Assembly (NCBI GenBank): GCA_016875405.1
Contig: VGRJ01000015.1
Span: 1 to 64,000 of the forward strand
Length of the DNA: 64,000 nucleotides
Reading direction: 5' to 3'
From: Deltaproteobacteria bacterium
GTDB taxonomy: Bacteria > Myxococcota_A > Polyangia > Polyangiales > Polyangiaceae
Shown here: one piece after another, positions 52,348-60,852 of the stretch
Layout: every line of letters begins with the position of its first letter
Numbering within the stretch: position 1 is the first letter of the stretch
Made by a program: the position numbers and the translations under genes
Notes under the pieces: generated by a model
Seen by the model: only the letters and a program-made list of their open reading frames with translations
The model's database searches: none
What the model was told of the DNA's origin: nothing

Positions 52348-54120
<1,773 letters not shown>

Positions 54121-55616: not shown

Positions 55617-56651
55617 TTACTTCGTCGCGGGGGTCAGTGCAAGGGACAGGCGGACCAGATCGGCGAGCCGAGCCACCCCGCGATCGAGCGCCTCGTAGGG
55701 CCATGGCGCCTCGATGTGGACGTCGCTCCCGTCGGCGCGGACCTTCGCGGCTCCGAGCGCAGCCTTTGCCCCGCCTAGCTCGTCCGGGACGAGCAGCAGC
55801 GCGAGGTTCACGGCGGCGAGATCGGTCTCGAGCGTCTTGACGAGCTCGGTCGGCGTCGTCCCGCGGGGGCGGACACGGATGTCGACGGCCGGCGCGTCAC
55901 CGAGAAGCAGCGAACCCTCGAGGCGCTCGATGTGGGAGAGCGAGCCGAGAGAATCCAGCATCCTCGGCAGCGCGTCGCCCGCACCGCGAGTCGCGGCGCC
56001 GTTTAGCAGAAAGGTCACGGCGCCCCTCGTCGGGAGCGGCACCGCGTCGGCCTCGTCCCTCTCCTCGCGGGGCGGCAGCGCGGCGAGCGCGATCCCCTTC
56101 GTGGTGCCGAAGACCAGCGTCCCGTCATCGGCTTGGCCGATGGCGCCTCCGGTCGCGGCGTGCACGAGCAGGTCGCCGTCGCGCGTGAAGCCTTCGAAAC
56201 CGTCTTCCTTGAGCGCCTTGTCGAGCGAATCGACGAAGGAACCGGCCCGCAACGTGCCGCCGATCGCGAGGACCCACTGCTTGCCGTCGACCGAGCCCAG
56301 CGCGAGCTCGCGCACGTCGGTCGGAAGGTGGACGCCGCTCTCCTTGCCGACGCGCTCGAGCAGCGTCGAGCCCTTCGCCTCGGTCGCCTTCGCTTGCTCG
56401 AGGAGAGGCAGCAGTCGCTCGCGCACCGGGCGCCAGGTGAGGAGCTCGAGGGCGTCGATCCGCGCGGCGACCGCCGTGCCGCGTGGCAGGTGACGATGCG
56501 CGGTCTGCGTGGGCCGCAGCACCTTGAAGTACAGATACGCGCCGATGCCGCCGACGAGCGCGGCGATCGTGATCAGGGCGAGCAGCATCTTGCCGATGCC
56601 GCTCGAGCGCGGCTTCGGCGAGCGTTGGTCGGGGCGCTCTTTATCGGACAT
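55617..56651 (-). CDS. Single-anchor protein, related in layout to its upstream neighbour
   Basis: The 344-residue product has a charged cytoplasmic start, one hydrophobic helix (GKMLLALITIAALVGGIGAY) and a soluble periplasmic part. It shows LPRGTAVAARIDALELLTWR, VRELALGSVDGKQWVLAIGG, FTRDGDLLVHAATGGAIGQA and ERLEGSLLLGDAPAVDIRVR. The alternation of short strands with helices recalls DUF3352-type proteins, but I cannot confirm the family. The next gene upstream (56665-57638) shows the same order of features, suggesting an old duplication. It starts 13 bp after that gene. Function unknown. Confidence 0.6.
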   Translation of the reverse strand: MSDKERPDQRSPKPRSSGIGKMLLALITIAALVGGIGAYLYFKVLRPTQTAHRHLPRGTAVAARIDALELLTWRPVRERLLPLLEQAKATEAKGSTLLERVGKESGVHLPTDVRELALGSVDGKQWVLAIGGTLRAGSFVDSLDKALKEDGFEGFTRDGDLLVHAATGGAIGQADDGTLVFGTTKGIALAALPPREERDEADAVPLPTRGAVTFLLNGAATRGAGDALPRMLDSLGSLSHIERLEGSLLLGDAPAVDIRVRPRGTTPTELVKTLETDLAAVNLALLLVPDELGGAKAALGAAKVRADGSDVHIEAPWPYEALDRGVARLADLVRLSLALTPATK

Positions 56652-56664
56652 CGCGCATCGAAGA

Positions 56665-57638
56665 CTAGCGCGAATCGGGCCGCTCCGGGTCGGCCTGCTC
56701 CTCGGAGCGACGCTCCTCGGAGAGCAGGGCGGTGATGAGCTCGGTCGGCATGGACCAGCGGACGACGACGGTACCCTCGTTCACGTCGGTCTCGAGCGCG
56801 CCGAGCTTCTCCTTGAGCGACGCTCGTGCCTCCGAAGCCTCGCGAAACGCCTGAAGGAACCGCGCCACCCGGTCGGCCGCCGTCGCGCTCGCGCAGGTGA
56901 GCCGAGCGCTCACGACGAGGGCGTCTCGTCCCAGCTCGACGGTGCCTCTCACGCGCTCCAGTTGCGCGACGAGACCGCCTAGCGACGGGTGACGCTCCAT
57001 CCGATCCGCGGTCGGTCGCCCGGGCCGCAGGTCGAAGCTGAGGAGGCCGCGGGCCTCGGGATCCCCGCGCAACGGATCCGGACCACGCGCAAGCAGGCGT
57101 CGCACGCTCGCGGCCTCGACCGGCGTCACGAACGCGCGCGCGCGGTCGACGTCGAGGAGCTCGGCCGTCCCGTCTCGCGGCGGCGGCGCGGTCGCGACGA
57201 AGCGCTCGATCCCCTCGACGCCGCTCCGCACCCGCGTCCAGCGCTCCGGATCGGGAACGGTGAGAGCGCTCCCTTGGCGCTCGACCACGAGCACGCGGTC
57301 GCCGGTCATGAGATCCGACAGGCGAACGCCGAGCCACACGACCCCAGCCCGCGAAACACGTCGCGCGCAGTCCGATCGAGCCGCGCCTCGTCGAGGCCTT
57401 TCGCGAACAAGGCGTCGGCGGCGAGGGCGCCCAGGCTCTCGCGAATCATCCGCAAGTCGAGTCGAACCACGAGGTCGAGGTCGGCGGGGATGAGGTCGCG
57501 TGGCTCGAGGAGCGCGCGCGACGACGCCGTGGCAAACGGAGTCAGGGCGCCCGAGCTCCGCGGCTCGCCGCCTGCCGGGACGACTCTCCCGCACGCGGCG
57601 AGCAGCAAGAGCGAGGCGAGGCGCTCAGGACGCAGCAC
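56665..57638 (-). pseudogene. Lipoprotein gene interrupted by a -1 frameshift at a G run (two reading frames)
   Basis: The 5' part (57306-57638, GTG start) encodes a 110-residue lipoprotein beginning with lipobox LLLAAC and continuing LIPADLDLVVRLDLRMIRES, then RTARDVFRGLG before running out of frame. The other frame resumes the same protein at VVWLGVRLSDLMTGDRVLVV and continues through LLSFDLRPGRPTADRMERHP to the end at 56665. The change of frame lies at the run of four C on the plus strand (57342-57345, GGGG in the mRNA): slipping the GGG codon back by one base gives a smooth join. One missing base, an assembly error or a programmed -1 shift would all explain it. The joined product would have about 324 residues and resembles the neighbour at 55617. 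Its start overlaps the cmk end by 14 bp. Confidence 0.72.
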
Positions 57639-58350
57639 GGCGAACCAGCGCAGCGAGCTCCTCGACGAGCTCGTCGATTTCGCGTCCCGACGAGTCGACG
57701 AGCACGGCGTCTCTGGCCTGACGAAGCGGTGCCACCGCGCGCTCGGTGTCGCGATGATCGCGCAGCTCGACCTCCTCGCGGACCTTCTCGATGTCGATCT
57801 CCTGGCCTGCGCGCCGCAGCTCCTCGTGTCGCCGCTCGGCTCGGATCGCGACGCTCGCCGTCAGGTACACCTTCACCGCAGCTTGAGGGAACACGACGGT
57901 TCCGATGTCGCGTCCTTCCGCGACGACGCCGCCGTTTGCGCCGATCGCGCGCTGCAGCTCGAGGAGGGCCGAGCGCACTGCGGGGATCGACGAGATGCGG
58001 CTCGCGCCGAGGCTGATCGATGGCGTTCGGATCGCGGCCGAGACGTCCTCGCCCTCGAGGACGACGCGTAGGCCACGCTCGCTCGCTTCATCGCCCGTGC
58101 CGCGAGGCACGGGCTGGAGCGCGAGGCCACCGCGGCGAGCGAGGTCGGCTGCAACCTCGGTGACCCGTGCCTCGTCGTCCCACGAGACCCCCGCACGCTC
58201 GGCCGCGAGCGCCACCGAGCGGTAGATCGCGCCCGTGTCGAGCAGCACGTAGCCGAGCGTGTCGGCGAGCTTGCGGGCGATCGTGCTCTTGCCCGCTCCC
58301 GCCGGTCCGTCGATCGCCACGACCACCCGGTTTTCGCCGCCGCTCGTCAT
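57625..58350 (-). CDS. cmk: Cytidylate kinase
   Basis: Cmk phosphorylates CMP and dCMP. The 241-residue product has the P-loop VAIDGPAGAGKSTIARKLAD, LLDTGAIYRSVALAAE, the substrate-binding EGRDIGTVVFPQAAVKVYLT, the lid ASVAIRAERRHEELRRAGQE and LRDHRDTERAVAPLRQARDA, and ends normally. ATG 58350 is preferred; a TTG at 58389 would overlap the AroA-like stop. It sits in the common aroA-cmk-rpsA order, although here five genes separate it from rpsA. Confidence 0.96.
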   Translation of the reverse strand: MTSGGENRVVVAIDGPAGAGKSTIARKLADTLGYVLLDTGAIYRSVALAAERAGVSWDDEARVTEVAADLARRGGLALQPVPRGTGDEASERGLRVVLEGEDVSAAIRTPSISLGASRISSIPAVRSALLELQRAIGANGGVVAEGRDIGTVVFPQAAVKVYLTASVAIRAERRHEELRRAGQEIDIEKVREEVELRDHRDTERAVAPLRQARDAVLVDSSGREIDELVEELAALVRRAAS

Positions 58351-58385: not shown

Positions 58386-59756
58386 TCAAGCCACGACGTC
58401 GATCGTCGCGCCGAGCGCGCGCAGGGTCGCGAGGAGCCGCGGATAGCGCGCGAGCAACAGGTCTGGGTTCGCGAGGACGGACGGGCCGTCGGCCCCGAGC
58501 GCGAGGACTACGGCGCCGAGCGCGAGATCGGGACGCCTCTCGACGTCGAGCGACACCGCATGGACGCGGCGCGAGCCAACTCCCTCGACGGCGATGCCAC
58601 CGTTGAGCGGGCGCGTTCCGATCCCAAAGGCGTCGAGCAGCCGCGCATGGCCTTCCTCGAGGTCCTCGAGATCCGTGAGTCGACTGTGCGCCCCTTCAGG
58701 CGCGCGCGCTGCGAGCGGAAGCAACACGGCGGTCGACACGCCGACTCGGTGGGCCCGCTCGCCGCCGAGGTCGAGTCCGCGCTCGAGCGGGCCGCGCAAG
58801 GTGACGTCGGCTGCCGCTTGCCCGAGCGCGTCCTGCTTGGCCTCCACGGCGAGGGTTGCCCCCGCATCGGTCAAGGCCTCGAGCCACCCGCTCGAGGTGC
58901 GGCGGCTCGGAGCGCGCCGCACACCGACGGTCTCTCCCCCCGGCTGCAGCGACACCGCGAGCAAGGCGACGGCCGCGTTCGCGTCGACCGGAAGCTCGCC
59001 GCGCAGACCTACGGGCTCGGCGGGCCCGTCGAGCTCGGTGAGCGGCCCGAGCGAGCGCAGCGGGACACCCGCCGCGGCGAGGAGTCCCGGCACCGTGTCG
59101 TCGCCGAGCTCGCGCTCGTAGAGCTGCGTCGTCCCCTCCGCGCGGATGCCCGAGAGCAAGGCGGCGGCCTTCACGAGCGGGCGAGCGCCTGGCCAGCTCT
59201 CGGCCTCGGCAACATCGAAGGCGAGGGGCGAGAGCGGGACGTCGCTCGGGCCAAGCTCGAACGGCGGCTCCACGACGCCGACACGTCTGCGCGGGTCTGG
59301 GTGCTCCGGCGCGACGAGCTTGCCCTCGATGCGCGCGTTGCGGTGACGCAGCACCTTGGCGATCGGCGCCATGACGTTCCGCATCGTCGCGGGGTCGCCC
59401 GAGAGCGTGGTGGAGAAGGGCAGGCCAACGGCGAGCGAGGCGAGCGCGGCCATTGCCGAGGCGTCGTCGGCGGCGTCGAGCTGGGCTTCGGGGGCTTGCC
59501 AGGTCTCGAGGTGACGTCCGCGGACCGCGAGGCCGATGACTCGGCCGCGAGCGTCGCGGCGCTCGTCGATCGACACGCCGAGCGAGCGCAGGGCGCCTAC
59601 GATCGCGAGCTGCGGGAGGCCGCGTCCGGTGAGCTCACTCTCGCGCCGCTCGCAAAGCGCGGCGATCGCGATGGCGTAGGTGGCTGCTCGCGCGTCGATC
59701 GGTCCGGGGACGACGCCGCGAAGGGGAGATGCGGACGGAGTGACGACGAGCCGCAT
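58386..59756 (-). CDS. EPSP-synthase-fold protein (AroA homologue) lacking the usual catalytic residues
   Basis: A 456-residue protein that follows the AroA fold and motif order (VVTPSASPLRGVVPGPIDAR at the start, LRSLGVSI, FSTTLSGDPATMRNVMAPIA, LPVDANAAVALLAVSLQPGG, YPRLLATLRALGA near the end) and lies at the usual aroA position before cmk. However, the positions that bind phosphoenolpyruvate and shikimate-3-phosphate in E. coli AroA are changed: no SKS..(N)R (K22, S23, R27), NAGTAMR is DDASAMA, the ERP Arg124 is Asn, KETDR is missing, DHR is ERR, and the Lys before FPDYF is gone. It is therefore unlikely to make EPSP. ATG 59756 follows a strong terminator by 39 nt. Function unknown; possibly a pseudoenzyme. 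Confidence 0.78.
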   Translation of the reverse strand: MRLVVTPSASPLRGVVPGPIDARAATYAIAIAALCERRESELTGRGLPQLAIVGALRSLGVSIDERRDARGRVIGLAVRGRHLETWQAPEAQLDAADDASAMAALASLAVGLPFSTTLSGDPATMRNVMAPIAKVLRHRNARIEGKLVAPEHPDPRRRVGVVEPPFELGPSDVPLSPLAFDVAEAESWPGARPLVKAAALLSGIRAEGTTQLYERELGDDTVPGLLAAAGVPLRSLGPLTELDGPAEPVGLRGELPVDANAAVALLAVSLQPGGETVGVRRAPSRRTSSGWLEALTDAGATLAVEAKQDALGQAAADVTLRGPLERGLDLGGERAHRVGVSTAVLLPLAARAPEGAHSRLTDLEDLEEGHARLLDAFGIGTRPLNGGIAVEGVGSRRVHAVSLDVERRPDLALGAVVLALGADGPSVLANPDLLLARYPRLLATLRALGATIDVVA

Positions 59757-60060: not shown

Positions 60061-60852
60061 TCAGGGGACCACGTACACGGCGCCCTTCATGCCCGCCGCG
60101 TAGTGAAAGTCACAGAAAAATCCGTATGCGCCAGTCTGCGGGAACGTGAACTGCGCCTGCATCCCGGAGGTCGTGGGCTTGATGGGCCCGATCGAGTCGA
60201 CCGTCTTGACGTTGTTGGAATTGATCAAGCCGCCGTACATCGGGTGCGCGGCGAAGTCCGTGCCGCTGCCGACGAAGAGCACGGGGTTTCCCTGCTTAAT
60301 CTTGATGCACGCGGGCTGGTAGCTGATCCCGCTGAACACGATGACCGGGAGCGGGTTCGCGGTGTAGTCGGTGAGAGCGTTCGGGTCGCAGCCGTTCAGC
60401 GGCATGGTGGGGTCGCCGCCTCCGGTGGCCGCGCTCGACGACATCGCGCCCGACGAAGCCATCTCGGCGCTCGAAGCGACCGCGCTCGAGGAGGCGACCA
60501 TGTCGCCGCCGGCCCCCGCGTGCATGCCGCCCGAGCCGTGCGTCATCGAGCCGCCCTCGCCGCCGCCCGCGCTCGACGAGGAGCCGACGGTCTGGGCGTC
60601 GAAGATCTCCTTCGTGACGCACGCCTTGTGCGCGACGCTGCAGTATTTGTTCTCGCCTTCGTTATCCGTGCAGCTGTCGTAGCTGAGCTCGTTGTTCGGC
60701 CCGCACGTCTCGAGCCGGTTGCCGACGCATCGCTTCTGCCCGATGCGCTCGTCCGCGCAGTCCTTGCCGCGGCACGCGCTCGAGAACGTCGACAGCGCGA
60801 GGCACAGCGCGCCAACGCCGATACCAACCCGAAGAAGCCAGTGAGTCGCCAT
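60061..60852 (-). CDS. Cupredoxin (plastocyanin-like) lipoprotein
   Basis: The 263-residue product has a signal peptide and lipobox (FSSAC), a Cys-rich N-terminal part (CADERIGQKRCVGN, LETCGPNN, SCTDNEGENKYCSVAHKAC), a long Ser/Ala/Gly/Met-rich linker, and a C-terminal cupredoxin domain. The latter has the type 1 copper ligands: His in FAAHPMYGG, then Cys, His and Met in GFFCDFHYAAGMKGAVYVV. Such domains carry single electrons in the periplasm or at the outer face of the cell. The linker's high Ser content is typical of myxobacterial lipoproteins. A TTGACA (minus strand, 60887-60892) lies 35 bp upstream but has no convincing -10. Confidence 0.85.
   Translation of the reverse strand: MATHWLLRVGIGVGALCLALSTFSSACRGKDCADERIGQKRCVGNRLETCGPNNELSYDSCTDNEGENKYCSVAHKACVTKEIFDAQTVGSSSSAGGGEGGSMTHGSGGMHAGAGGDMVASSSAVASSAEMASSGAMSSSAATGGGDPTMPLNGCDPNALTDYTANPLPVIVFSGISYQPACIKIKQGNPVLFVGSGTDFAAHPMYGGLINSNNVKTVDSIGPIKPTTSGMQAQFTFPQTGAYGFFCDFHYAAGMKGAVYVVP

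Follow-up and report, generated by a model that had tools for sequence, protein, structure and literature searches.

The gene at positions 58386..59756 (minus strand) of the window, as we call the whole 64,000-nucleotide stretch of DNA analysed here, encodes a degenerate class II AroA of 456 residues, which keeps a predicted EPSP synthase fold and has lost nearly all of its active site, in a genome that carries an intact class I aroA on another contig. The explanation that we consider probable is that the ancestral class II aroA, linked to cmk, survives in this gene, that class I aroA genes have repeatedly released such genes from catalysis, and that the protein persists because of a non-catalytic role. 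AroA, the glyphosate target, is generally regarded as an enzyme with one function. Independent lineages in which catalysis has been handed over to another gene, and in which the old AroA is nevertheless still constrained, would point to a hidden role of the protein and provide a direct route to look for it.

The reading frame of the window gene extends on the minus strand from an ATG at 59756 to a TGA at 58388..58386, through 456 codons uninterrupted by a stop or a frameshift. The product has a sole match in Pfam, to the EPSP synthase family PF00275 (35.7 bits, cut-off 22.8), and the bacterial EPSP synthases 3rmt, 5bs5 and 5buf are its closest solved structures by sequence. An AlphaFold model computed with an input alignment of 26 homologues reaches a mean pLDDT of 92.7 and a pTM of 0.92, and its top structural matches in the PDB are the class II EPSP synthases 5bs5 and 5buf (TM 0.82–0.86, best E 5e-39); by source, the best matches are the EPSP synthases of Acinetobacter, Coxiella and Bacillus and the CP4 enzyme, at TM ~0.8. 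On profile and fold, the protein belongs to PF00275 and to the enolpyruvyl transferase (EPT) superfamily, bearing out the AroA fold that the initial annotation had recognized by eye, and it is predicted to fold well as a class II EPSP synthase.

The neighborhood of the gene had been described in the initial annotation as an aroA-cmk-rpsA locus. The cytidylate kinase gene cmk (57625..58350, minus strand; PF02224, 226 bits) starts 35 nt past the AroA-like stop, and rpsA, encoding a ribosomal protein S1 with six S1 domains, is located on the same strand at 52348..54120 (PF00575, 276 bits). The identity of both genes is therefore confirmed, but several genes separate cmk from rpsA. Two of the open reading frames in this interval, at 56665-57594 and 55617-56651 (both minus strand), have no Pfam match, and the latter presents a membrane-anchor-like segment at its start. 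Immediately upstream of the AroA-like gene, at 60061-60852 (minus strand), lies a gene for a cupredoxin-domain protein (PF00127) with a lipoprotein-like N-terminus followed by a Ser/Gly-rich stretch.

The state of the active site was assessed on 17 columns, defined as positions whose conservation reaches 95% or more in 56 intact relatives, onto which the residues of the window protein were mapped by alignment to E. coli AroA and orthologues. The 56 intact full-length relatives retain 16–17 of these 17 residues, whereas the window protein retains one and the rest of its genus one or two. With the E. coli AroA residue given first and the window residue second, the changes are K22 to A22, S23 to R23, R27 to Y27, N94 to D97, G96 to A99, T97 to S100, R100 to A103, R124 to N127, S170 to E186, Q171 to L194, S197 to G218, D313 to V340, K340 to L366, R344 to a gap, H385 to P409 and R386 to D410. 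On the minus strand of the window, residues 22–28 (ARAATYA, 59673..59693) occupy the place of KSIxHRA in intact class II enzymes, with loss of K22, S23 and R27, and residues 96–103 (DDASAMAA, 59448..59471) that of GNSGTTMR, with loss of N94, G96, T97 and R100. Residues 331–344 (GGERAHRVGVSTAV, 58725..58766), which read GGExVxRaIDEVPI in intact enzymes, have lost the catalytic D313; the loop at residues 361–368 (TDLEDLEE, 58653..58676) is shorter than its intact counterpart, ELRVKESDR, and lacks K340 and R344; and residues 407–411 (RRPDL, 58524..58538) replace GDHRI, without H385 and R386.

Nine of the ten residues K22, R27, R124, Q171, D313, K340, E341, R344, H385 and R386 are thus lost, leaving a Glu only at E341. 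This residue, E367 of the window protein, aligns to the E341 column within the shortened loop, where the flanking Lys, Asp and Arg are absent, and for this reason the match is probably coincidental. The initial annotation had reported the replacement of the SKS..R, NAGT, ERP-Arg, KETDR, DHR and final Lys motifs, and had named equivalents of Lys22, Arg27, Arg124, Glu341 and His385 as residues whose preservation would speak against it. Apart from the isolated Glu, these equivalents are absent, and the first five motifs are indeed gone. The absence of the final Lys (K411 in E. coli) was rejected as a sign of loss, because the tabulated intact cmk-linked copies also have Thr at this position, which makes the missing Lys a trait of AroA proteins of this type.

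Profile scores lead in the same direction. Against the AroA equivalog TIGR01356, the window protein obtains 29 bits and fails the cut-off of 287, as compared with 348 and 369 bits for two intact cmk-linked relatives and 316 bits for the second AroA of the same genome. No MurA profile matched the window protein, even at an E-value of 10, and its identification as a MurA or another enolpyruvyl transferase was rejected on profile scores and on its orthology with intact AroA. An assembly or frameshift artefact was also dismissed, given the open frame and the occurrence of this state in four further members of the genus. We infer that the window protein is catalytically dead. Having lost conserved catalytic residues in a gene that is retained by selection, it has the attributes of a pseudoenzyme, with the loss of activity deduced from its sequence.

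If the window protein no longer makes EPSP, the shikimate pathway would need a second aroA elsewhere, as the initial annotation had anticipated, and such a gene is present. The genome of the window contains three EPT-family genes: a MurA-like gene with a strong PF00275 match (C28, L001), the window gene, and an aroA of class I type, intact in all motifs, at positions 34615-35802 of contig C22. The latter overlaps a fused gene for a type I dehydroquinase and shikimate dehydrogenase (aroD-aroE), with which it forms an aroDE-aroA operon, aroB lies at a distance of ~2 kb on C22, and chorismate synthase is present in the genome. Because an intact class I aroA exists on another contig, the pathway does not need the window copy, and EPSP synthesis is, as far as sequence can tell, independent of it. 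Chorismate synthase yields two matches in this genome (G000:C146:5489-6535 and G000:C164:1-879), one of them cut by a contig end, and both a duplicate and contamination are possible sources of the second match.

The association between a damaged cmk-type copy and a second aroA holds across the family. A homologue of the window gene was found in 85 of 98 family genomes, in most cases adjoining cmk, and active-site columns were read in ~90 copies; most of the genomes are metagenome assemblies. A scan of named genomes with a single peptide pattern gave only five loci, and the relatives of the window genus identified in this way are likewise metagenome assemblies, assigned to Polyangiaceae and Myxococcales. 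Across 76 genomes (a count that omits G049, in which a contig edge falls at the locus and no EPT sequence is found there), a second aroA accompanies a degenerate copy in 29 and an intact copy in none, whereas genomes without a second aroA have a degenerate copy in one case and an intact copy in 46. Every genome with an intact second aroA and a readable cmk-type copy has the latter damaged. This combination is seen in genera g1 (that of the window), g3, g7, g19, g22, g31, g40, g41 and g45, and in G166 and G167 of g5, and the damaged copies range from 15/17 residues kept, in four g19 genomes including G087, down to 1/17. The four g19 copies may still be partly active. Full-length copies in genomes without a second aroA keep 16–17 of the 17 residues, with the sole exception of G065. 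The rule that a degenerate copy implies a second aroA correctly predicted its presence in G166 and G167, where degeneracy was seen first and a second aroA was then searched for and found in both genomes; no second aroA was found in their intact g5 sisters (G162-164).

The exception, G065, carries a degenerate copy in an assembly that is 90% complete and in which no second aroA, aroB or aroC was detected. Its congener G033 possesses aroB and aroC together with an intact copy, and G065 has likely lost the shikimate pathway. Both G065 and G015 (assemblies 90–96% complete) give no aroB or aroC match and no canonical aroA, and the pathway seems to have been lost in the two genomes. The gene was not found beside cmk in relatives G016, G024, G009, G052, G083, G023 and G015. 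In G074, represented by a single metagenome assembly, the degenerate gene lies on a contig without a nearby cmk, which is located on another contig.

These losses appear to have a multiple origin. On a tree of cmk from 85 genomes, obtained with a quick method and containing many weak branches, the degenerate state requires ~9 changes and the presence of a second aroA 8 changes, as counted on 76 genomes. The tree yields five supported independent pairs (eight on all branches), of which, over random pairings, a mean of 4.9 out of 5 change in the same direction and none in the opposite one; the sign test on the five supported pairs gives p 0.0625, five pairs being unable to reach 0.05. In a tree of the proteins, the second AroA copies are separate from the class II enzymes of cmk type and join the class I enzyme of E. 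coli, and they fall in four to five clades (g1, g45, g41, g24 and g16; g19, g22, g3 and g40; g9 and g31; g5, beside E. coli; and g7), which suggests several separate acquisitions. Most second copies keep 18–19 of 19 active-site residues, and some residues are altered in a few of them (G052, G007). The second aroA genes of G167 (L151) and G166 (L153), whose place in this tree is next to E. coli AroA, point to a transfer from a proteobacterium-like source. The degenerate cmk-type copies of g1, g45 and g41 (e.g., L005, L006, L008, L009, L065 and L066) have a common GER--R at residues 332–337, and GDAD or GDPD replaces GDHR in most degenerate copies of these genera, hinting at a single common loss, after which constraint was renewed.

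Outside the active site, the degenerate genes are under purifying selection. Pairwise codon models give a dN/dS (omega) of 0.03–0.11 for unsaturated degenerate pairs and of 0.024–0.059 for intact pairs. Among the former, omega is 0.107 for G041/G068 (2/17 residues kept; dS 0.53) and 0.027 for G169/G171 (dS 1.28). The latter is a g22 pair, as is G088/G094 (omega 0.031), both with 9–10 of 17 residues kept; in the window genus, G051/G005 gives 0.045, a rough value since dS is ~4.5. Selection on the amino acid sequence in the degenerate genes of g22 is thus about as strong as in intact enzymes and in cmk. Between the window gene and its nearest relatives, with 55% amino acid identity, synonymous sites are saturated and omega is only bounded, but a value of 1 is rejected (2 delta lnL 242). 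Third codon positions change most, and there are no indels in the closest degenerate pairs (G041/G068, G169/G171 and G088/G094). Relative to cmk, the degenerate genes of g1 and g41 evolve ~2 times as fast as those of g22, and constraint is therefore somewhat relaxed in these genera.

The changes that have accumulated are concentrated in the active site, whose columns are lost preferentially in every degenerate group. In genus g1, 7 of 79 active-site cells are kept, as opposed to 318 of 543 other invariant cells (Fisher 4.5e-18, with the cells of related genomes not being independent). G093, in g19, keeps 5/17 active-site residues vs. 111/115 other invariant columns, and its comparison with a relative, G078, shows differences at 14 of 18 positions in the active site vs. 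55 of 436 elsewhere. Across 18 strongly degenerate copies, retention is lowest in the substrate-binding loops, and the columns kept in all 18 include L12, G14, G60, G80, P165, K196, E214, R280, G332, E333, R337, P439 and G449, with G332, E333 and R337 falling in the segment that has lost D313. Such a targeted pattern is what would be expected if the active site had been released while the fold continued to be selected. Conservation among relatives, which the initial annotation had proposed as a guide, is hence that of a fold under selection with a lost active site.

In the model that we favor, the window gene would be the ancestral cmk-linked class II aroA of the Polyangiaceae, turned into a pseudoenzyme. 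A laterally acquired class I aroA, next to aroD-aroE on C22, would make EPSP in the window lineage, and the class II active site, no longer needed, would have decayed, while purifying selection continued to act on the remainder, since the protein, once folded, serves in some way that is independent of the active site. This course of events would have been repeated independently in several other genera. The direct observations, namely the active-site losses, the intact second aroA, the association of both in relatives, the selection on the rest of the protein and the predicted intact fold, agree with the proposal of the initial annotation that the gene has been retained as a pseudoenzyme, without EPSP synthase chemistry. 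We infer a role that requires the fold and not the active site, most likely the binding of a partner protein. This non-catalytic role is possibly older than the losses: since the second aroA genes that accompany the pattern come from different clades, it is simpler to suppose that the class II enzyme already possessed the role, before catalysis was handed over, than that the role arose anew each time. The absence of the gene beside cmk in several relatives implies that some lineages can dispense with any second role. A broader proposition, put forward tentatively and at slightly less than even confidence, is that class II AroA proteins of Polyangiaceae, perhaps together with those of other bacteria with an aroA-cmk-rpsA arrangement, have an unrecognized second function in which the active site plays no part. 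If true, the repeated class I replacements would constitute natural separation-of-function experiments exposing a second function of AroA.

Retention of the fold could also be accounted for by a regulatory pseudoenzyme that senses shikimate-3-phosphate, or that modulates the class I AroA by pairing with it. There is a fungal precedent, in which shikimate-pathway homologues thought to be inactive serve as regulators (PMC10512348), and several replacement residues are fixed in g22 (K22R, Q171H, T411V), as those of a retained ligand site might be. In the window clade, however, the substrate-binding residues are lost and vary among species, the partners would differ from lineage to lineage given that second aroA copies belong to 4–5 clades, and G065 keeps its degenerate copy where neither the pathway genes aroB and aroC nor a second aroA are detected, all of which makes such a regulator unlikely. 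A location directly upstream of cmk in most degenerate cases, at 35 nt in the window, could mean instead that the frame is kept by translational coupling to cmk, and that selection only preserves a harmless, foldable product. The concentration of losses in the active site and the existence of clean deletions would fit this arrangement, but an omega of 0.027–0.031 in g22, as strong a constraint as in intact enzymes (0.024–0.059) and cmk, and the persistence of the gene away from cmk in G074, albeit in one metagenome assembly, render it unlikely too.

Recruitment of the fold to another substrate and reaction, the alternative that the initial annotation had offered to a pseudoenzyme, finds some basis in the selection on the sequence and in the residues newly fixed in g1 (R45, W291, R334, D410). 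The residues of EPSP synthase that bind PEP are K22, R124, R344 and R386. This Lys and these Arg are gone in the window, former pocket positions vary between species within one genus, and the same loss, with other replacements, is seen again in further lineages, so that a new enzyme is not supported and seems very improbable. An ordinary pseudogene, decaying and caught before its first stop codon, would be in keeping with the takeover of the original function by another gene and with the relatives that have no gene beside cmk; it is scarcely credible for ~30 degenerate copies that remain open and near full length across deep divergence, with dN/dS far below 1 and a high-confidence predicted fold.

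The window protein resembles class II EPSP synthases (PDB 5bs5, 3slh and the CP4 enzyme 2gg6) in its full-length fold and in its aroA-cmk gene order, and shares an orthologous position with the intact AroA of other Polyangiaceae; it departs from the class II enzymes in its active site and in its score on the AroA equivalog. The evolutionary pattern is reminiscent of the fungal Ssd1/Dis3L2 pseudonucleases, in which the active site has been lost independently several times, sometimes after duplication, with other parts conserved, and for which a second function older than the losses has been proposed (PMC8097288). These proteins are eukaryotic and of another family, and, unlike that of the window AroA, their second function is known in outline, comprising RNA binding and cytokinesis (PMC8097288). 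The fungal repressors QutR, GaaX and TanX, derived from AROM domains, are likewise homologues of shikimate-pathway enzymes presumed inactive, and QutR-type repressors are thought to sense the inducer (PMC10512348), but they are multi-domain relatives of shikimate kinase, dehydroquinase and shikimate dehydrogenase, not of EPSP synthase. In poplar, the EPSP synthase paralogue EPSP-TF acts outside the pathway, in transcription (PMC8018706), although this plant protein has an added DNA-binding N-terminal extension that the window protein lacks. In Pseudomonas syringae, the resident EPSPS domain (aroF) has been displaced by a second copy elsewhere in the genome, probably laterally acquired (PMC1173090), but the old domain is truncated there, whereas the whole protein is kept here. 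The open-access literature searched yielded no description of a bacterial AroA pseudoenzyme that has been retained. Annotation by homology can misname such genes, as illustrated by the copy of G087, which has lost two active-site residues and still scores above the AroA cut-off (325 vs. 287 bits).
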